Shown in pieces: positions 2,348 to 40,663 of a DNA stretch of 42,695 bases. The notes below the pieces were generated by a model. That model had not been told where the DNA came from, did not search any database, and saw only the letters and a list, made by a program, of their open reading frames with translations. Each line of letters begins with the position of its first letter. The first letter of the stretch is position 1. The stretch comes from a virus. The stretch is taken from positions 1 through 42,695 of IMG/VR virus record IMGVR_UViG_3300033148_001917. One strand, written 5' to 3'. Position numbers and translations under genes: made by a program.

Positions 2348-2746
2348 ATGAAAGGCTCTTATAAAATAGTTACTGAGAAGGACAGACAAGACCTTCTCCA
2401 AAGGATAAGTCACGCCTCTCTGGAAAGGCCGTGGAGAGTAACGGTAGAGTTTTACAAGAAGAAACGTTCAATAGACCAGAACGATTTATTCCATGTCTTA
2501 ATGAGAGAGGTCAGTCAAAAGTATGCAGAGCATTATGGTGAATTTATTACACCTACTTTCTTTAAAAAGTTCTTTAAGGAAATGTTTTTAGGGCAGGAAG
2601 TAGCTATAATTAGTGGTAAACAAGTAGCTGTAACACGAAGCACTAGCGATTTAAACGTACAGGAAATGTCCGATCTAATTGAACAGGTCTATATGTACGC
2701 ATCTACCGAATGGAGCATCGTATTAGGAAATAGAGATGGAAGCTAA
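2348..2746 (+). CDS. NinB-like recombination mediator
   Basis: The 132-residue protein matches the NinB/Orf pattern of lambda: after an N-terminal strand region (RPWRVTVEFYKKKRS) comes SIDQNDLFHVLMREVSQ, the signature SxxQNxxxHxLL region near residues 42-58. Lambda Orf binds single-stranded DNA and SSB and helps load the annealing recombinase in place of RecFOR. The length is close to the family norm of about 145. The phage also encodes a Rad52-like annealing protein and an SSB-like protein on the opposite strand, which fits a recombination pathway. The family call is good; the partner is inferred. Confidence 0.8.
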   Translation: MKGSYKIVTEKDRQDLLQRISHASLERPWRVTVEFYKKKRSIDQNDLFHVLMREVSQKYAEHYGEFITPTFFKKFFKEMFLGQEVAIISGKQVAVTRSTSDLNVQEMSDLIEQVYMYASTEWSIVLGNRDGS

Positions 2747-4953: not shown

Positions 4954-5146
4954 CCATTTCGGTGATCCAGCCAAGCACCACGAGATCCAGGATGATTACA
5001 ATGTAGGCTGTAGAGGGTGCCTATCTAACAATCAGACTACTATTACAGTAGGACCGAACCGTACCAGACAAAGATGGGTGTGCGACATGAAACAAGTTTG
5101 TTATCCGAATGGTGGGAAGGACTTATGTATGTGGTGGAGGAAGTGA
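4934..5146 (+). CDS. Cys-rich zinc-finger-like protein, 70 aa
   Basis: ATG at 4934 overlaps the previous stop by one base. Five cysteines (CRGC, then CDMKQVCYPNGGKDLC) and a His-rich N terminus suggest a zinc-binding module. It resembles small Cys-rich proteins that lie near late antiterminators in many phages. Its first codons are duplicated in B1 at 4530. Confidence 0.65.
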   Translation: MDRLYKSHFGDPAKHHEIQDDYNVGCRGCLSNNQTTITVGPNRTRQRWVCDMKQVCYPNGGKDLCMWWRK

Positions 5147-5607
5147 CTAATCCTATCCGGCTATTGGCTATGCAAGTTGAGAAGTCAGGGAATATGGAAC
5201 CCTCCTCTCCCTCAATAAACGAGATAGACCAAGCCATCGCCTCTGGTATGTGTTCAGGGATGCCCCGCCACTGGTATCTTTCAGCAAGGCTTAAATGGTG
5301 CCTAGACACATCAGTCAGGAATGAGCTTGAACAACGGCTTATGAAAGAGGCTATCTGGCTATCTAAAAATGAAAAGTGGAGAGTCCCTAAAGGTAGGAAT
5401 TATATAGAAAAAATGGTAATATTAAGCATGGATGAGACATTAGATCCACGCAGTTACAAGCCAGCCTGGGTGAAATCCCAAGTCTTGGGGATGGACGATT
5501 CCAGGTTCTCAAGGGTCTGGTCTGAACGGTATGAGGGCGTGTTTTCCTATATCCGAGACTGGTCAGATTGCGCTATTGATTACCTGAAAAAGAAGCAGCG
5601 AAGATGA
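5125..5607 (+). CDS. Possible Q-like late antitermination protein
   Basis: I start at ATG 5125 with GGAAGGA upstream, overlapping the previous gene by 22 bases; an in-frame ATG at 5074 is possible but lies deeper in that gene. The 160-residue protein has the spacing seen in phage Q-type antiterminators: RHWYLSARLKW, KEAIWLSKNEKWRVPKGRNYIEKM, then VLGMDDSRFSRVWSERYEGV and IRDWSDCAIDYL. The last part looks like a helix-turn-helix (LGMDDSRFSRVWSERY). Position adds support: it is followed by a structured leader with an intrinsic terminator and then the virion genes, as Q is before pR'-tR'. The family assignment is a pattern judgement and not certain. Confidence 0.55.
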   Translation: MYVVEEVTNPIRLLAMQVEKSGNMEPSSPSINEIDQAIASGMCSGMPRHWYLSARLKWCLDTSVRNELEQRLMKEAIWLSKNEKWRVPKGRNYIEKMVILSMDETLDPRSYKPAWVKSQVLGMDDSRFSRVWSERYEGVFSYIRDWSDCAIDYLKKKQRR

Positions 5608-6086
5608 CATATTGCGAAAGATGGCCGATTACACATACTCAATATAAATGTTTAACCACAGGATGTAGAAAATTTCGACCACGAGGTCAGAAATATTGTG
5701 AAGATCACCGACATTTAGCCATCCTTGATGAAATCAATAAATTAAGTGACATAAAAGAGCCTAAAGAAGAAAAACATTTTGGCTGTTGGATATATTTTGT
5801 AGAGGCTAAAGGAACAAAATTAATAAAAATTGGTAGGACGGCCTCGTTGAAGGAACGCATGTGTGCGTTAAATACATCCTCGCCTGTAGAATTGAACACA
5901 ATAGCCTTATTGAAGGCCACACCTTCTCTTGAGACAGATTTGCATGAATATTTCGACTTTTGCAGGAAAAGAGGCGAATGGTTTGAAATATGTACTGATC
6001 TTCAGGAAGTCATTGATTTAGCTAAGAAAAATAAACTACCAGAAATCAAAGAAAAGATACGCCAGAAAATTGACAAAGCGCAATGA
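5604..6086 (+). CDS. GIY-YIG (T5orf172/MUG113-type) nuclease with N-terminal zinc finger
   Basis: ATG overlaps the Q-like gene by four bases. Residues 1-40 carry a C-x5-C...C-x3-H zinc site (CLTTGCRKF, YCEDH). From residue 62 comes a GIY-YIG-like core: WIYFVEA, LIKIGRTASLKERMCALN with the conserved Arg, a middle Glu near LETDLHEYF, and RGEWFEI at the end. This arrangement is typical for the T5orf172 and MUG113 subfamilies, many of which are homing-type or accessory nucleases. Its position between an antiterminator-like gene and the leader suggests a mobile insertion. Confidence 0.8.
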   Translation: MTYCERWPITHTQYKCLTTGCRKFRPRGQKYCEDHRHLAILDEINKLSDIKEPKEEKHFGCWIYFVEAKGTKLIKIGRTASLKERMCALNTSSPVELNTIALLKATPSLETDLHEYFDFCRKRGEWFEICTDLQEVIDLAKKNKLPEIKEKIRQKIDKAQ

Positions 6087-6090
6087 ATAA

Positions 6091-6482
6091 CCTACTCTAA
6101 ACGTAGGATGGGGTTTTGCCCCTACAGAATTTGCGCGGCGTGGAAAGCTTCAAGACACGCACCTTTAACCTAGTTTACTAGATTCAGGATGCCTTATTAG
6201 GCAAGTCACAGTAGCGCGTGACCGCAAATAACACCGCTTAGGCGGAAGGGAATACCGAGAGGTAGCCCAAAATCCTAGCTGCCAGAGCAGTTAGTTGCAT
6301 CCAGTAACCGGGGGCTGATAGACAATTCCTCGGTATTAACAACACCCCTTACGCCTCTGACAAGTATGTATAAATCTGAACCCAGTATGCGTTCAGTAGG
6401 TTATATATTAAGCGCACCATGAGGGGTTACTTGAACAATAAGCAAAACCATCCATTTAGCCCTGCTTGCAGGGTATTTTTTT
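6091..6482 (+). ncRNA. Structured non-coding leader RNA region ending in a terminator
   Basis: No credible gene lies in 6087-6567. The strand can fold into many perfect stems: CCTAC/GTAGG (6091-6107), GCGTG/CACGC (6138-6160), GCCT/AGGC (6191-6202), GTCAC/GTGAC (6205-6222), CCGC/GCGG (6234-6245), a long-range 9-bp AATACCGAG (6251-6259) with CTCGGTATT (6329-6337) that encloses AGCCC/GGGCT (6264-6268, 6312-6316) and TAGCTGC/GCAGTTA, and CTGAAC/GTTCAG (6376-6396). The nested 9-bp, 5-bp and 7-bp arms are hard to explain by chance. By position it may be a late-operon leader acting in antitermination. A stand-alone RNA is the alternative. Its family is unknown to me. Confidence 0.5.
6460..6482 (+). 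terminator. Intrinsic terminator ahead of the virion operon
   Basis: CCCTG-CTTG-CAGGG hairpin (6460-6473) followed by TA and seven T residues. It would stop transcripts from the early operon or leader before the virion genes at 6568 unless read-through is enforced, fitting a tR'-like role. Confidence 0.85.
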
Positions 6483-6484
6483 AC

Positions 6485-6551
6485 GCCACCCCCAGTAATC
6501 CTCTCTCAACAACCCTGTACGGGTTGATACTACCTTAGACTGGTGGGTGGC
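6485..6551 (+). promoter_or_regulatory. Strong stem-loop in the 5' untranslated region of the first virion gene
   Basis: GCCACCCCCAGT (6485-6496) pairs with ACTGGTGGGTGGC (6539-6551), twelve base pairs with one bulged T, and encloses a second hairpin CAACCC/GGGTTG (6510-6526). The outer stem ends eight bases before the AGGTG ribosome-binding site of the gene at 6568. It could protect the mRNA 5' end, be a processing site, or control translation. Confidence 0.65.
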
Positions 6552-6567
6552 TCCTTATAGGTGAAAA

Positions 6568-6963
6568 ATGCTCCAAACTCTCATAGACGAGATAACAAAC
6601 GATCCTCTCACAAAGGGGTACGCAGGGATGACAGATCAAGAGGTTGTGGATTCGCTCAACGCTTCAAACAGATCTCTCCCTACTCCTCCGGTCAATGGTG
6701 GGCAATTAATGGAGAATATTGACTCTAGTGAGTTTGCTAGTTTAACTCCATCAAACGTGTCTAATCTACAAATCTTAGTAACGGCAGCTCAAGGTGGATT
6801 AGATCTGAACAACGCAAACGTCTTTCAGGACATTGAAGACATCTTTTCACCTGGATCTGCTAGTCATAACTCGATCTCAGCCTTAAAAAGTTTCTCAGGG
6901 TCAAGAGCGCAAGAACTCAAACTTCCCAAAGTTAAATTAGGTCATGTTGAGGAGGCTAGATAG
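6568..6963 (+). CDS. Hypothetical virion-associated protein, 131 aa
   Basis: ATG preceded by AGGTG. The protein opens with a helical LIDEITNDPLTKGYAGMTDQ segment that recalls small proteins found beside tail-appendage genes in environmental phages, then Asn/Ser-rich text and a basic end (RAQELKLPKVKLGHVEEAR). First gene of the rightward virion block. Function unknown. Confidence 0.7.
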   Translation: MLQTLIDEITNDPLTKGYAGMTDQEVVDSLNASNRSLPTPPVNGGQLMENIDSSEFASLTPSNVSNLQILVTAAQGGLDLNNANVFQDIEDIFSPGSASHNSISALKSFSGSRAQELKLPKVKLGHVEEAR

Positions 6964-7025
6964 TGGCAAATTATTTCGGTAAGCCCATGTGTTTTATGCA
7001 TAGTTCAAACCATAGGGGTAATTAA
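6963..7025 (+). CDS. Possible 20-aa peptide
   Basis: A GTG frame overlaps the previous stop and has GGAGG eight bases upstream; it ends two bases before the TTG start of the next gene. It may serve only to keep ribosomes moving across the gap. Short, so weakly supported. Confidence 0.25.
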   Translation: MANYFGKPMCFMHSSNHRGN

Positions 7026-7026
7026 A

Positions 7027-7575
7027 TTGGCAAACGAAGTCCTTATAAAAGACGGCACAGCGAAAGTTTGGGCTGATACTACGGATTACTCCTCGACAGT
7101 TTCAGGCCTTTCAAGAACCCATCAAATCGATCTTACAAGTGTATCAGCAGCCGCCTCAAGGCAAGGTGCTAAAGCTGACTTAGGAGCAACGAGAGCAAGA
7201 CAGTTCGCGGTTTTGGTTGGAATAGAGATCGCCGCAAGTGCCGCTAGTGATGAATTGATTAGCATTTATTGGGCGGCAAGCCCTTCAACCACAGCAGGTA
7301 ATGCAAACCCTGGCGGTACGAGTGGTGCAGATGCAGCTTATACAGGCACTTCAGGTGATTCATTAGCAGACTCTTTAAAACAACTAGAATTTATCGGAAG
7401 TCTTGTCACCACTGCGGACAATACAACGACTGTTCAATATGGGCAGGTAGGGATTTTAACTGACATTCCTAGATATGGGATGCCTGTTGTTGTGAATAAT
7501 TCTACAGGCGCATTAATGACTGATGCTGTTGAAATGTTTATCGCTTTATTGCCGTTAATAGACGAAGTTCAATAA
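7027..7575 (+). CDS. Putative structural protein, 182 aa
   Basis: TTG start with AGGGG eight bases upstream. The composition is that of a beta-rich virion surface protein: low Cys, many Ala/Ser/Thr/Gly, with strands such as RQFAVLVGIEIAAS and GMPVVVNNSTGALM. It lies between other appendage genes and is followed directly by a LamG-like protein. Likely a decoration or tail-appendage subunit; no family name. Confidence 0.65.
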   Translation: MANEVLIKDGTAKVWADTTDYSSTVSGLSRTHQIDLTSVSAAASRQGAKADLGATRARQFAVLVGIEIAASAASDELISIYWAASPSTTAGNANPGGTSGADAAYTGTSGDSLADSLKQLEFIGSLVTTADNTTTVQYGQVGILTDIPRYGMPVVVNNSTGALMTDAVEMFIALLPLIDEVQ

Positions 7576-8360
7576 TGGCTCGTTTGTTTGATGACGCTTC
7601 AAGTCAATACCTGGAGATATCAAAAGCAATAGTTAGTAGTTACCCTTTAACAATGGCTTGTTGGTTCAATTCTAACGATCTAACCACTGGCCAGACATTA
7701 ATATGTATAGGTGATACAGCAACAGATGCTAATTTTTTCCGGCTCACAGCACAAGGTAATGCTGCTGGAGACCCGTTAAGAGCACAATCCTCATCACCGA
7801 CCGCAAACCGCTTTTGGGATACAACAACAGGGTATAGTGCAAATACATTGCATCATGCGGCGGCAGTTTTTACCTCCGCCTCAAGTCTACAAAGCTTTAT
7901 AGACGGTGATGGATCTGGCGCTTATGGGTCTTCTGCAAATCCTACTCCAACAGGCTTAGATACTACATCTATTGGGAGACGAGGTGTTCTAACCCCGATC
8001 CAGTATATGTCAGGACATATCGCAGAGGCAGGTATTTGGAATGTTGCTTTAACTCAGGCTGAAATTGATTTATTAGCTGCCGGTCATCCTCCGTCCGATA
8101 TTCGCCCAAGTAATTTAGTTGATCATTGGTTATCGGAAGAAAGCTCAAATCCCGAAAAAGGTTTAATAAATAGTAATAATATGTCTGTTATAGGGGCTAT
8201 TCGATCCAACCACCCCAGAATAATAAGACCTACTGCTCAAATAATAAGTTTCCCTACAGCGGCAGCACCAGCAGGAAGAATAATGAGCAGTTTAGCAAAT
8301 CATGGTGGTTTAGCGGGTAAAGGTGGTTTGGCCGGGCAGGGGGGAGGACTTGCATCCTAA
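7575..8360 (+). CDS. LamG/concanavalin-like virion protein with Gly-rich tail
   Basis: The 261-residue protein has the LamG-type jelly-roll pattern: [23 protein letters not shown], a run of strands, [19 protein letters not shown], then [21 protein letters not shown]. This last element is diagnostic for the laminin-G-like superfamily used for carbohydrate binding. The C terminus is a Gly/Leu/Ala repeat ([19 protein letters not shown]) common in phage appendage proteins. It likely binds glycans on the host or at the virion surface. Its 3' end meets the antisense homing endonuclease gene. Confidence 0.8.
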
Positions 8361-9016
8361 GGCAACCATGTTATGCCATTAATAACATCACGTATTGTTC
8401 TAGGAGCTACACCGAATTTTATAGCTAATTGGTTTGGTGTCATTATAGAGTTAGTTCTTATAAATTCTGCGGCTTCTTCAGTGAGCTTTACATTACGATG
8501 ACCTATTCGTCTTTCGGTTCTGGATATAGAAAAAACAACATGTTTTGGTCTGCGTTGATTATTTGCTTGCTGTTTGTAAGTAGCCCAACGGCAGTTTTCA
8601 GGAGAATAATTACCGTTATTATCAATTCTGTCTATGGTCAGTCCATCAGGACGTACGCCCATATCGGCGTAGAAATTTTCAAAGGAATCCCAACGCTTAC
8701 ATACAGATATACCTCTGCCGCCATAATGTTTCCATCTTCTATTATTAGGATTATTACAGCGATCTCTAAGTCCTTCCCAAGAGGCGTATGTTTTAGTTTT
8801 GGACATTCCATGAGTTATACCGCTGGGGTCAGTTTTCATGATGCAACCACAACTACGACTTACTTTTTGCCTAAGACTTTTTCCAAGCACATGCTTTGTA
8901 ATGCCGCAATCACATTGACAGAGCCATCTAGCATCACCTCTTGGCCCATTTTTAGCACGATGAATAACAGTCCATCTATCAAATTTATACCCTGTAATAT
9001 CAATAAATCTCTGCAT
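8357..9016 (-). CDS. HNH homing-type endonuclease with zinc finger and C-terminal HTH
   Basis: I start at ATG 9016, seven bases after GGAGGG; a longer upstream frame lacks such a site. The 219-residue protein has [12 protein letters not shown] and a zinc site CQCDCG near 33-38 with SCGC near 55, the HNH core with [12 protein letters not shown] and [20 protein letters not shown], and a DNA-binding tail ([21 protein letters not shown]). This domain order is typical of free-standing phage homing endonucleases. It lies antisense between two virion genes and touches both, so it is an insertion. The target is likely the uninterrupted junction in related phages. Confidence 0.9.
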
Positions 9017-9060
9017 TTTATGACCCTCCATCCAATGTCCATACAAAGTATACCACAATA

Positions 9061-10566
9061 ATGAGAGATATTATACTAGCGGATACAGTTTATATCGCCT
9101 TCACGACTCGCGCATTTGCCACTGGTATTCCAACGGCATTAGCCGGAACTCCTGTTGTTTCCGCTTATGAAGACGCTGGACTTACTCAAATAACCGCAGG
9201 GATTACGCTCGGAGTAGACCATGATTCCGTCACCGGGCTTAACATGCTTACTATCGTTGCTACAGGGGCGAATGGGTACGAAAGTGGTAAAGACTATCAA
9301 CTTGTAATAACTACAGGAACAGTAGGAGGGGTCTCGGTAGTTGGGGAGGTTGTAGGCCAGTTTACTATTGACAATACAGCTAAGGCTGTTTGGGATAGAG
9401 TCTTAACTGGTGCTACACATAATATAGCGACAAGTGCAGGGCGTAGACTGAGGGGTATTCAAGAATTCCAGGGTTATGAGAATGGCGCTATCTGGATCGA
9501 TACTGTTAACGGTACGGCAGGGACGACAGACTACGAAAACGGCACAGTTGAGAACCCAGTAGACTCGATAGCTGATGCTAATACGATTGCCTCAAGTCTG
9601 GGTATTTCACGTTTTGAAGTAGCCCCTGGATCAACTATTACCCTAGCAGCAGCACAGGTAAGCCAGATATTTGATGGGCATGGCTGGATTCTTGCGCTTG
9701 GTGGGCAGAATATATCAAATACTCTATTTCACGGTGCTGATGTAACAGGTACAGGAACCACCGCGACAGGAGAGTGTGAAATATCCCACAGCCATATAGG
9801 TAACGTGACCGTCGGGGAGTGTCATTTTGACGACTGTGGTATTTCTGGAACAGTAACCGCAGGCGCAGCGGGCGACTATACCTTTAGCCATTGTTATTCC
9901 GAGGTAGCAGGTAATGGATCGTGGACATTCGACTTCGTAGGCTCTGGCGGGAACATTGGCCTAAGCCTTAGAGACCATTCTGGCGGAGTCACAATAAACA
10001 ATAAAGATGGTGGCACCGACACTGACACCATGACAATAGAGGGAGACGGCCAGTTAATTGTCGCAGCTTCAAGTAGTGGCGCTATTTCAAGAAGGGGTAA
10101 TTTCAAAATAACAAACACAGGTGGGGCTACTCTCACTAATGACGACAACACCGCTAACATAGCTTTAACAGTAGAAGACACTAACGAACTACAAACAGAC
10201 TGGGCGAATGGAGGAAGGTTAGACACTATACTAGACGGCGCAAGCACTCACAGCGCCGCAGATGTGTGGACTGCCGCAGGCAGGACTTTGACTGATGGTA
10301 TTCAGAAGAACGCAACATTCAGTAACTTTGAGTTTTTGATGGTAGACTCTACAGATCACGTAACGCCCAAGACAGGCTTAACAGTAACAGGTCAACGATC
10401 AATAGACGGAGCTGCGTTTGCGTCCGTATCAGGCTCAATAGCAGAAGTCTCAAATGGTATCTATCAGTTTGACGCGGTAGCAGCAGATACAAATGGAGAT
10501 GTAATAACCTGGCGCTTCTCAAGTGCAGGGGCAGATGATCGATTTGTAACAATTACTACCCAGTGA
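9061..10566 (+). CDS. Tail fibre or appendage protein, 501 aa
   Basis: The middle of this protein is a long series of short strands with turn-forming Gly/Asn/Asp and repeated Cys-His motifs ([30 protein letters not shown]), suggesting a right-handed beta-helix from about residue 150 to 360. Near 380 it has [19 protein letters not shown], a segment that recurs in appendage proteins of aquatic phages, and it ends in a beta-sandwich-like region. Likely a trimeric fibre or baseplate appendage. No ribosome-binding site precedes its ATG, probably because the homing endonuclease insertion replaced the upstream sequence. Confidence 0.65.
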
Positions 10567-10763
10567 TTTGTATAGACTGCCAAGAAGACAAGACAGATTT
10601 TAACCCTGATTACCGCCGTAAAACCAGATTAAAACTCTACTGTACAGACTGTGAAGAAAAAAGACGTGAGTACACAATTAATGACGATGACTCTCACGAT
10701 AAACGAGAGATAAAACGCCTAGAAAGACGGATAACCGAGTTAGAGCTTCTCATCTCTGGCTAG
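10563..10763 (+). CDS. Zinc-ribbon protein with coiled-coil tail, 66 aa
   Basis: GTG start overlapping the previous stop by four bases. CIDC and CTDC pairs 21 residues apart form a zinc ribbon and are followed by an acidic stretch and a leucine-heptad helix (IKRLERRITELELLI). It closes the rightward appendage operon and overlaps the opposing gene tail-to-tail by 24 bases. Confidence 0.65.
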   Translation: MICIDCQEDKTDFNPDYRRKTRLKLYCTDCEEKRREYTINDDDSHDKREIKRLERRITELELLISG

Positions 10764-11038: not shown

Positions 11039-11424
11039 TATATCCACTCCTGCTTTAGGGCATAGCCGCCATTAGAATCAAGCTGGCCGTTACGGGTTCC
11101 ATGAGGTTTATCAGTACCATTAGGCCAGAGTGTGTAGCCAAGGTTATAAACAAGGCTGAAACCCATGCCCATGCCACAGCCGCCGATCTTGATACCACCG
11201 TTATCAGCGCGCTTTTCATCCATAGCACGGGCAGCAAGCCACGTAATATCTTGAACATCAGCGCCAGAGCCTATAATCAGGCTTACATGCCTCATCATTC
11301 CAGAGCGTGAGACATGGCGCAGTATGGTGTAAACAGTATCACCGGGCTTTAAGAGGTCGCGCAGCCTGTCGCAAGCTTCGGCACGTTCATTGATAGCTTG
11401 TTGTTTTTTTGTGATTGTTTGCAT
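11038..11424 (-). CDS. Conserved phage hypothetical protein, 128 aa
   Basis: AGGAG precedes ATG 11424. The protein has the features of a widespread small phage family of unknown function: LKPGDTVYTILRHVSRSGMMRHVSLII, then GGCGMGMGFSLVYNLGYTLWP and a basic C terminus. The HVSRSGMxR and GMGMGFxLVYxLxxxLxP motifs are the signature. Function unknown. Confidence 0.75.
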   Translation of the reverse strand: MQTITKKQQAINERAEACDRLRDLLKPGDTVYTILRHVSRSGMMRHVSLIIGSGADVQDITWLAARAMDEKRADNGGIKIGGCGMGMGFSLVYNLGYTLWPNGTDKPHGTRNGQLDSNGGYALKQEWI

Positions 11425-11446
11425 GGTTATTTACTCCTATAGTGTG

Positions 11447-11638
11447 TTAGTTGAAAGCCCCGTCAAAGAAATCTTGCTCAAGTTCTGAAAGTTGTCCGGG
11501 TGTATAAATAAATACCTCGTCAGCCAACTGCTTTAGTTCATTGATTGAGCCAGCCCGACAAGCTGCATGATATAAAGGCTCGTCATTCATAAACAAAAGG
11601 CTTAGTTCTTGATCGCTGTACTGTGTAATGTTTTGCAT
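11447..11638 (-). CDS. Hypothetical acidic protein, 63 aa
   Basis: GGAGGGA precedes ATG 11638. Acidic and helical, ending LSELEQDFFDGAFN. Possibly a small DNA mimic or inhibitor by charge, but nothing in the sequence proves this. Confidence 0.6.
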   Translation of the reverse strand: MQNITQYSDQELSLLFMNDEPLYHAACRAGSINELKQLADEVFIYTPGQLSELEQDFFDGAFN

Positions 11639-11657
11639 TCTCTATCCCTCCATAGGG

Positions 11658-11798
11658 TTATAGGATTAACTGGATAGCTTCTGATTCAGTGATAAGACCG
11701 ACTTCCAGCTTGGCTTGGACTTCATATAACCAGTTTAAGCGGTCGATTGAGTCAGTAGCCATTTTCTCGATACTTAGAATGTCGTTGAATTTGTTCAT
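11658..11798 (-). CDS. Hypothetical protein, 46 aa; first gene of leftward block
   Basis: TAGGAGGCGACCAAATG makes ATG 11798 the start rather than longer upstream frames. Helical (ILSIEKMATDSIDRLNWLYE). Transcribed divergently from the possible small terminase, from the AT-rich region 11799-11913. Confidence 0.6.
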   Translation of the reverse strand: MNKFNDILSIEKMATDSIDRLNWLYEVQAKLEVGLITESEAIQLIL

Positions 11799-11913
11799 TT
11801 GGTCGCCTCCTAGTAAGTAACTACAGTATACATACATAGTAACAAATAGCAAGTAAATAATACTAATTAATACATATACAAGTTAGTGACCACTAACCCA
11901 AAAGACTATACAA
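11799..11913. promoter_or_regulatory. Divergent AT-rich control region
   Basis: 115 bp between divergent genes with very high A+T, GTTAC direct repeats (for example around 11818-11845) and the 16-bp palindrome at 11882-11897. Likely holds promoters for both directions; I do not see a textbook -35/-10 pair. Confidence 0.6.
11882..11897. promoter_or_regulatory. 16-bp palindromic operator-like site, copy 1
   Basis: GTTAGTGACCACTAAC, with perfect seven-base arms GTTAGTG and CACTAAC. It shares all but the three central bases with 12749-12764. It ends 17 bases before the ATG of the gene at 11914. No T-run follows, so it is an operator rather than a terminator. Confidence 0.75.
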
Positions 11914-12282
11914 ATGAGTGAAGTAACCAAAAGACAACAAAAGAACCTCCGAGACAAGATAATTGCTGCTGCTGAAAAGATAGTTCCCAGGCTGTGTGAT
12001 AACGCTCTTGGTGAACTCAAGGACAAGGAAGGCAATAAAACGGAGATGTCTCCGAGCATGGTCAAGTCAGCAGAGGCTATACTATCCAGGTCAGTACCTA
12101 CTCTACAATCAACGGAGTATGTAGAACGTAAAGACTCCCTTACCGAGTCTGAACAGATAGACAGACTCAAGGCTTTAGTCCAGAAGAACCCCGACCTATT
12201 AAAGACTTTAAACAAGATAGCCGAACAAGGCATAGTTATACCCATAGCGGCTACGGAATATCCAGATGAAAAGACGGCGTGA
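11914..12282 (+). CDS. Possible small terminase subunit
   Basis: A basic helical N terminus (SEVTKRQQKNLRDKIIAAAEKIVPRL), a central helical part (SPSMVKSAEAILSRSVPTLQS) and a coiled-coil-like C terminus fit small terminase architecture (DNA-binding helix, oligomerisation domain, TerL-binding tail), and the 122-residue length is plausible. However, it is separated from TerL by over 6 kb that include the glycan cassette. No confident motif. The alternative is an early DNA-binding regulator. Confidence 0.4.
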   Translation: MSEVTKRQQKNLRDKIIAAAEKIVPRLCDNALGELKDKEGNKTEMSPSMVKSAEAILSRSVPTLQSTEYVERKDSLTESEQIDRLKALVQKNPDLLKTLNKIAEQGIVIPIAATEYPDEKTA

Positions 12283-12418
12283 ATACACCAGAGTCCAATA
12301 CTTCGACACCAAGCTAGACAGATACGTTGAGGCAAGGATAGATAAGGACGGTAAGCAACAAGGAATGAAAGTCCTACCTGACCCACTAAACCCGTTTAAA
12401 CACGTAGCCAGACCATGA
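12266..12418 (+). CDS. Small basic hypothetical protein, 50 aa
   Basis: ATG lies inside the end of the previous gene. Strongly basic N terminus (MKRRREYTRVQYFDTKLDRY) and Pro/Lys-rich end. Overlap on both sides supports translation. Perhaps nucleic-acid binding. Confidence 0.5.
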   Translation: MKRRREYTRVQYFDTKLDRYVEARIDKDGKQQGMKVLPDPLNPFKHVARP

Positions 12419-12483
12419 TATTCATAGTAGGCACAGTAATAGCTATTATACTGATAGCCCTATGGAGGCTCTACCATTGGTAG
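12415..12483 (+). CDS. Single-pass membrane microprotein, 22 aa
   Basis: An ATGA overlap leads into MIFIVGTVIAIILIALWRLY, which is almost entirely one transmembrane helix with a positively charged end. Such microproteins are often missed. It could modulate a membrane process or simply keep coupling intact. Confidence 0.45.
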   Translation: MIFIVGTVIAIILIALWRLYHW

Positions 12484-12665
12484 ACGCCATCAAACAAGTA
12501 CAAAAGGCTCTTGATAAACAAGGTGTCCCGGTAAAAGGCAGGAAGCTAGCCTTTCAAGGCATAGACGGCAACGCTTACCTATTAAGTATGGATAAACCCA
12601 ACAAAGACTTGATTGAACTAATGCCTGAATACTTACGTAATGCTTATTATGAGGATATTGGTTGA
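12462..12665 (+). CDS. Hypothetical protein, 67 aa
   Basis: Overlaps the membrane microprotein by 22 bases in another frame. Soluble, with LPLVDAIKQVQKALDKQG and an acidic end (NAYYEDIG). No family recognised. Confidence 0.55.
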   Translation: MEALPLVDAIKQVQKALDKQGVPVKGRKLAFQGIDGNAYLLSMDKPNKDLIELMPEYLRNAYYEDIG

Positions 12666-13103
12666 TATGGTTATCCTCTCCCCTCATTCCTTCTCAAATG
12701 TTATTGATTCTCATTCTCATCTACTATTTAATATAATGTATATCGCACGTTAGTACTCACTAACACATAGTTATAGCCTCCATAGCAAGCATATAAGCCT
12801 CTAACTACTCTAAGCAGTAGGTAGTATAGGGTAAGATGAGTTAAGCCCTTGTACACGCTACAGCGTGGCTCTAACAACTATGTAGGGGCGTATCTAGGTA
12901 GGTTCCTGGTATGAATAGGGCTTACCCCCCTTTATGTAGAGTGATATCCCCGCTATCCCAATCTAAGATTTTACAAGAGATATCATTCAACCCTATTACA
13001 AGTAGGTTATTAGACTAAATAGAGGGTATATCGGGGGTAAGAAAAGGCTTGTTAATACCAATCTGTCGGTGTAGAGTTCGTCTTTTGTCGGAGTAACATT
13101 GAC
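12666..13103. other. 438-bp gene-free region with promoter, palindrome and stems
   Basis: No gene fits here. It holds a TATAAT -10-like box at 12732-12737 without a good -35, the 16-bp palindrome at 12749-12764 just downstream of it, and several stems: CTACT/AGTAG near 12808, CACGC/GCGTG near 12856, and a 7-bp TAAGCCC/GGGCTTA pair joining about 12842 with 12926. It could be an untranslated leader for the operon from 13104, or a packaging site, because the possible small terminase lies just upstream. Confidence 0.5.
12749..12764. promoter_or_regulatory. 16-bp palindromic operator-like site, copy 2
   Basis: GTTAGTACTCACTAAC, sharing 13 of 16 bases with 11882-11897. It sits 11 bases after the TATAAT box, where a repressor would block the start of transcription of the operon that leads to the glycan and packaging genes. 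Confidence 0.75.
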
Positions 13104-40331: not shown

Positions 40332-40529
40332 ATGGATATACCTCTGGATAAAGAGTTTCTTGTTTATATCTCCTTGAAATTCCCGGAGGATATCCACCCG
40401 GACATGTCTCCAGCAGGGCGGCATCCCTGTTCTTATGCCAAGGACGCAAGTGGAGACATTCATTACCGAGTGACCCCTTCGTTAACAGGGGTAGTGAGAG
40501 AGCTGGTTGCCTGTGAAAGCCTTTTCTGA
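40332..40529 (+). CDS. Possible protein, 65 aa, overlapping a structured region
   Basis: ATG three bases after the preceding stop but without ribosome-binding site. Composition is protein-like (MDIPLDKEFLVYISLKFPED). However, the same DNA has an inverted pair ATGTCTCCA/TGGAGACAT (near 40404 and 40451) that encloses CAGGG/CCCTG, plus CCCCT/AGGGG further on. It may be coding, structured RNA or both. Confidence 0.35.
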   Translation: MDIPLDKEFLVYISLKFPEDIHPDMSPAGRHPCSYAKDASGDIHYRVTPSLTGVVRELVACESLF

Positions 40530-40577
40530 GTCGCTATCGGATGGGGTGAGTGCCGCAGCCAGCTTAATCATTTTATT

Positions 40578-40663
40578 GATAGCTATAGTGTAATGCGCTG
40601 AAAAGGGTAACACGCAACCCGAAATGGTTGAGAGGTAGGTTCGATTCCTACTAGCTATCGCCA
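40578..40663 (+). tRNA. tRNA-like element with D-loop insertion and short anticodon loop
   Basis: The layout follows a tRNA: acceptor GATAGCTA/TAGCTATC (8 bp), T8 A9, D-stem GTGT/ACAC (40588-40591, 40610-40613), anticodon stem CAACC/GGTTG (40615-40619, 40626-40630), variable AGAG, T-arm GTAGG-TTCGATT-CCTAC (40635-40651) and GCCA (40660-40663). The D-loop is 18 nt; removing CGCTGAAAAG would leave a canonical AATGGGTA. The anticodon loop CGAAAT has six bases and no U33, so the anticodon is uncertain (GAA if read as a one-base-deleted loop). Probably a degraded or repurposed tRNA. CCA is encoded. Confidence 0.65.

Follow-up and report, generated by a model that had tools for sequence, protein, structure and literature searches.

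In lambdoid phages the late leader (pR'-tR') lies downstream of the Q gene, its promoter carries a Q-binding element and a -10-like pause site, and read-through is antiterminator-dependent. In phage HK022 the conserved stem-loop sequence of the put RNA binds the beta' zinc domain. This RNA has a length of about 70 nucleotides (nt), forms two stem-loops and lies near the early promoters (PMC9378689). During lysogeny, Shiga-toxin phages produce a small RNA, StxS, from their pR'-tR' leader (PMC7873438). Here we analyze positions 6087-6567 of a DNA of 42,695 nt from an uncultured phage (IMG/VR record IMGVR_UViG_3300033148_001917), the whole of which is referred to as the window. In all likelihood this stretch is a late on/off control region of the ordinary kind, though an unusually isolated one, and we put the probability that it is the attenuated late leader of a lambdoid-type phage at about one half.

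A structured gene-free stretch

No open reading frame (ORF) of at least 60 amino acids (aa) was found on either strand of 6087-6567, which leaves a 481-nt gap before the next gene. Codon scores within the stretch are non-coding in all six frames, and the genes on both sides score as coding. Both results bear out the statement, made in an earlier sequence-only reading of this DNA, that 480 base pairs (bp) here are gene-free. That reading also described the stretch as strongly structured. Folding of the + strand from 6105 to 6483 (379 nt) yielded -121 kcal/mol, or -0.320 kcal/mol per nt, with z = -3.9 (-3.87) against dinucleotide shuffles; 6075-6480 yielded z = -3.5, and coding controls flanking the stretch yielded z of about 0 to +1. 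When the + strand of the whole window was scanned in segments of 150 nt, the lowest mean z over ~500 nt began at 6061, so that the description holds and the stretch is the best sustained + strand structure in the window. As judged from folding alone, it is predicted to be RNA structure on the + strand beyond chance.

The reverse strand folds more weakly yet better than its shuffles (z from -2.3 to -2.6; -2.55 for 6105-6483). This could be explained by inverted repeats acting as DNA, in a replication origin, a packaging site or an attachment site. We consider such a role very improbable: the + strand is clearly better folded, it is the + strand that carries a terminator with a U-tract, and the long-range stems join segments 300 nt apart.

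Evidence for and against an attenuated late leader

An intrinsic terminator, also noted in the sequence-only reading, was confirmed close to the 3' end of the stretch (Table 1). As in lambdoid late leaders, it is located between a candidate promoter and the late genes, and it lies directly 5' of same-strand genes, which occupy 6568-10763 on the + strand. For the working of such a leader we infer a promoter, an antiterminator and conditional termination. Polymerase would either start at a promoter on the upstream edge, for which 6070-6098 is the candidate, or read through from the early genes. The resulting RNA of ~380 nt would form a five-way junction and, beside it, a nested hairpin domain. 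Transcription would halt at 6459-6482, and a phage antiterminator would let polymerase pass into 6568 and beyond. The leader folds probably slow RNA decay or steer processing; they need not carry antitermination.

Besides the terminator and the structured + strand without coding signal, this reading agrees with ninB lying upstream, which fits a lambda-like early order, and with the fold signal of known leaders, since the real late leader of lambda and that of Klebsiella phage RCIP0114 give a signal of the same kind. The lambda leader (NC_001416) was put through the same folding measurement as that of the window. The values are z = -3.1 and -0.343 kcal/mol per nt for lambda 6S, and z = -6.0 and -0.349 kcal/mol per nt for the 600 nt from the pR' start to S, and the RCIP0114 leader has z = -4.8 by the same measure. 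From start to first terminator the window leader spans 379 nt versus 194 nt for lambda 6S, and the whole gap is 677 nt between Q and S in lambda versus 481 nt here. The earlier description of this RNA as much longer and more structured than lambda 6S is thus correct for the distance to the first terminator; structure per nt is no stronger, however, and the full gap of lambda is the longer one. This calibration indicates that a strongly folded gene-free leader before late genes is by itself no sign of a new RNA. Sequence similarity between the two leaders did not rise above that of shuffles.

Several observations weigh against a late leader at this position. The promoter scan did not report the candidate at 6070-6098, because its second hexamer matches in three of six positions. 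The statistically better of the two long-range stems, P1, is impossible from a start at 6105. The leader-like stretch of a related phage, MW202713, folds no better than shuffles (z = -0.65). No Q family member was detectable in the record, and the PF06530 and PF03589 profiles match nowhere in it. Finally, the row of late genes is broken by opposite-strand genes at ~11041-12386 and by a non-coding segment at 12400-13000, with the terminase, connector and capsid genes located from 18.5 kb onward. The leader may therefore serve some of the virion genes only, and most of them may have another promoter.

Long-range stems and structured domains

The duplex energy of P1 was matched by 0.06% of 5000 shuffles (more than 99.9% beaten), a figure obtained with windows chosen post hoc, and its formation requires a transcript that starts 5' of 6082. 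The alternative stem P0 does not differ significantly from shuffles (p = 0.11). Both pairings can be drawn as long-range stems, but they are interleaved and a non-pseudoknotted fold can hold just one.

The T5orf172 gene ends in a stop codon that falls inside the 5' strand of P1. This arrangement would be expected from the strongest rival explanation, in which the stretch is a structured 3' untranslated region (UTR) of the early operon. Early mRNA (ninB to T5orf172) would run into the stretch and end at 6482, P1 would form around the stop codon, the folds would protect the mRNA end or yield a processed small RNA, and the late promoter would lie elsewhere. The excess of P1 over 99.9% of shuffles, the adjoining T5orf172 gene and the lack of a promoter in the scan all agree with it. 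However, the scan found no + strand promoter between the terminator and 6568 either, P1 was selected after the fold had been seen, and a structured 3' UTR of 300 nt would be unusual. We regard this explanation as rather unlikely.

Among the inner folds the nested domain at 6251-6337 is the most robust, with z = -3.6 and an equally good fold in none of 200 shuffles. Its 9-bp stem has a pair probability of 0.6-0.97 in every transcript tried, and the other leader folds vary with the assumed transcript ends. The nested fold had been read from the letters as 9+5+7 bp and was recovered as 9 + (2+6) + 7 bp plus a 5-bp side hairpin. Several of the further hairpins claimed at that time are also present, as is the 12-bp stem in the 5' UTR of the next gene, with its 12 pairs interrupted by one bulge. 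The latter region (6485-6551) has z = -3.9 on the + strand and -3.7 on the - strand. A 17-nt imperfect direct repeat, AAYAACACCSCTTASGC, occurs at 6227-6243 and 6338-6354 (82% identity), one copy 3' of each structured domain; it is weak and may be due to chance.

The five-way junction at 6129-6229 has a cloverleaf-like geometry that a descriptor scan of shuffled sequence encountered ~0.33 times per 42.7-kb strand; two more matches in the window are apparently in coding DNA. A tRNA or tRNA-like element was considered here and rejected, as the region lacks the T-loop and D-loop consensus and an anticodon arm, and just the cloverleaf spacing fits. ARAGORN was negative for a tRNA down to a threshold of 40%, and so was Rfam.

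These domains raise the question whether the stretch encodes a discrete structured RNA of a new class that acts in trans and has a promoter and a terminator of its own. Several stable domains within 380 nt (z = -3.9), ends that can pair through P0 or P1, the terminator and the rarity of the cloverleaf-like geometry, tempered by the two apparently coding matches, would all suit such an RNA. Yet the ordinary leader of lambda is equally structured, and the element has neither relatives in the collections searched nor an Rfam match beyond trivial ones. We keep this explanation, as a distinctly unlikely one, because the junction and the nested domain both fold better than expected by chance, folding being its whole support. 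It is doubtful to a similar degree, or slightly more so, that the five-way cloverleaf-like junction and nested domain make up a new-class RNA acting in cis or trans on late gene expression, whose ends would pair in two mutually exclusive ways set by the transcription start.

Searches for relatives

Comparison by blastn with phages and plasmids revealed no relatives of the leader. The proteins encoded at 6568, 5074 and 5604 have no relatives in IMG/VR, and that at 5074 has none in 84,980 species genomes; these negative results hold for the collections searched and do not show absence in nature. Candidates retrieved from IMG/VR with two DNA patterns look like chance matches and are mostly within ORFs. 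The protein encoded at 7027 has six relatives, and their gene clusters contain no similar leader; a 15-nt exact match in a relative was discarded, as it sits in a coding stretch. In Rfam nothing reached the gathering score for the leader, and introns, riboswitches, GOLLD and ROOL were excluded likewise. At E values up to 10 just the terminator-like sau-6072 (14.9 bits), the 23-nt bxd_1 and DUF805b (8.6 bits) appeared. The Infernal-type check proposed in the sequence-only reading therefore gave no family match beyond trivial low scores. As a late leader, the stretch would add one very divergent lambdoid example, orphaned in sequence with its structure kept.

A covarying pseudoknot RNA in late leaders and elsewhere

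Judged by its large terminase (48%), MW202713 is the closest annotated phage. Behind its annotated antiterminator gene lies a leader-like stretch, part of which matches non-coding DNA of three unrelated phages, and a pattern scan of IMG/VR located 17 more loci of the shared element, which we call R1. The alignment consists of 18 distinct sequences. R1 is ~90 nt long. Its outer stem has at most 8 bp, two stems of 6 bp each make up an H-type pseudoknot, and the blocks GGU, GAACCUU and GUAG are near-invariant. Standard pairs fill 90% of paired cells, compared with 26-41% for slid controls. Both sides change in 14 of the 21 pairs, and the covariation score was reached by no shuffle. R1 has no match in Rfam, and a literature search, which was not exhaustive, found no paper describing it. 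R1 is thus apparently an undescribed, strongly covarying pseudoknotted RNA present in unrelated phages, and in our view it is both better supported and more interesting than the leader of the window. The latter was tried as a member of R1 and rejected, as the covariance model, run with filters off, gave no match: the best-scoring segment of the window, 7707-7801 on the opposite strand, reached 14.2 bits (E = 0.13), and nothing scored in the leader.

R1 often occupies the leader that separates Q from the lysis genes; in several enterobacterial prophages it is flanked by Q (Pfam Antiterm or DUF1133/Phage_antitermQ) on one side and holin/lysozyme genes on the other. It was also found beside a RecE-like exonuclease gene (L044), 5' of the gene for a terminase small subunit (L037) and, in the jumbo phage XacN1 (L038), within a stretch matching the permuted transfer-messenger RNA (tmRNA) model; R1 is therefore not tied to Q. 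Two further observations were made at these loci. Directly 5' of R1 in Itty13 (L037:1378-1500) a tRNA-like cloverleaf with a T-loop signal and an abnormal anticodon region was recognized by eye. In XacN1 (L038:2759-3079) a GOLLD RNA (Rfam, 151.5 bits), partial at the fetched end, is located 3' of the permuted-tmRNA match.

The Q protein of the E. coli prophage ET151 does not differ from that of lambda, and across Q and the promoter the identity with lambda is 97%. After the promoter come ~760 bp unrelated to lambda, and identity to lambda resumes near S; the R1 motif is inside this unrelated part, 3' of a short terminator. Retention of the lambda Q and promoter with an unrelated leader indicates that late leaders are replaced wholesale, and an orphan leader such as that of the window is therefore to be expected. 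R1 is not needed for Q action, because lambda has the same Q and a different leader in that place. If R1 is real and functional, a role of late-leader RNAs beyond the terminator becomes testable.

Neighbouring genes and other elements

The gene order is ninB, small ORFs, a 177-aa ORF, the T5orf172/MUG113 gene, the leader and + strand genes. The 177-aa ORF had been called Q-like, and no Q profile in any library supports this. It is unmatched in Pfam, PHROGs, NCBIfam, PDB and direct comparison, and the AlphaFold model of its product (predicted local distance difference test score of 37) was unusable; its identity as Q would follow from position only and is not supported. Of the order proposed earlier (Q-like gene, leader, terminator, virion genes), the succession of early genes, leader, terminator and same-strand genes stands; the identity of Q is not supported, and the 177-aa ORF does not adjoin the leader, since the T5orf172 gene lies between.

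The lack of a recognizable Q protein in the record would agree with an antiterminator made of RNA, as in HK022, in which the nascent leader binds RNA polymerase, suppresses termination and stands in for Q. Two adjacent hairpins are present within the 9-bp domain, but the window RNA is located before late genes, and we think it most improbable that it acts in this way.

Relatives of the protein encoded at 7027 belong to tightly packed same-strand gene clusters on other viral contigs. Beside the reversed genes, the ~600 bp at 12400-13000 without coding signal on either strand are a possible second late promoter region or moron boundary. A tRNA-like gene (Rfam tRNA, 40.4 bits) was seen on the + strand at 40578-40663. 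It has a canonical T arm, a 7-bp acceptor and an encoded CCA, but its anticodon loop is 6 nt and its D loop is long; ARAGORN missed it by default and reported tRNA-??? when relaxed. It is partly overlapped by 40441-40590 (+), which is among the strongest-folded 150-nt + strand windows (z = -3.7).

Table 1. Features in and around the leader (window coordinates) and loci of R1 (coordinates within each locus)
Feature	Position	Strand	Remarks
ninB	2348-2743		Pfam 3.4e-14
177-aa ORF	5074-5607	+	Q position downstream of ninB; no recognizable family
T5orf172/MUG113 (GIY-YIG-type) gene	5604-6086	+	Pfam MUG113 2.8e-9, T5orf172 3.2e-8; PHROG homing-endonuclease family 1.4e-4
Candidate sigma-70 promoter	6070-6098	+	TTGACA-17-TACTCT, 9/12 matches; predicted start ~6105; read by eye, weak evidence
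Stem P1	6082-6096 with 6395-6409	+	closes ~330 nt; 15 nt, 87% complementary
TAGGAT	6104-6109	+	possible -10-like pause element, by eye
Stem P0 (alternative)	6106-6119 with 6442-6453	+	12 bp, 2-nt bulge; usable from start at 6105
Hairpin GGGG-UUUUG-CCCC	6110-6122	+	competes with P0
Five-way junction	6129-6229	+	closing stem 7 bp (6129-6135/6223-6229); cloverleaf-like spacing; z = -2.7
Four arms of junction	6138-6160, 6162-6188, 6190-6203, 6205-6222	+	
Hairpin CCGC-UUAG-GCGG	6234-6245	+	read from sequence
Nested domain	6251-6337	+	perfect 9-bp stem (6251-6259/6329-6337), inside it 2+6 bp and a 7-bp hairpin; second side hairpin 5 bp
Intrinsic terminator GCCCTGCTTGCAGGGT-ATTTTTTT	6459-6482	+	6-pair stem, loop CUUG, seven-T run
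5' UTR stem of next gene	6485-6496/6539-6551	+	12 pairs, one bulge; inner hairpin 6510-6526; 3' of terminator
First gene after leader (131 aa)	6568-6963	+	no family match; no relatives in IMG/VR
182-aa protein gene	7027-7575	+	relatives 52-76% identity
R1, L002	1563-1656	-	
R1, L037	1504-1597		
R1, L038	1492-1586		
R1, L039	1479-1573		
R1, L040-L056			
R1, L076			
R1, L077			
R1, L078	4001-4088		

Comparison with known systems

The lambda pR'-6S-tR' region (NC_001416, L090) resembles the stretch in its slot between early and late genes, in being gene-free and highly structured and in having an intrinsic terminator. Unlike the lambda leader, that of the window has no recognizable Q before it and a T5orf172 gene in between, its terminator lies ~380 nt from the candidate start (194 nt in lambda), lysis genes do not follow directly, and there is no sequence similarity. 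Like StxS, the predicted window RNA would be a late-leader transcript ending at a terminator, possibly stable and trans-acting. The put RNA of HK022 is a structured nascent leader 5' of a terminator, as the window RNA would be. In the related phage MW202713 (L002), as in lambda-like prophages, the R1 pseudoknot RNA occupies the same genomic slot.
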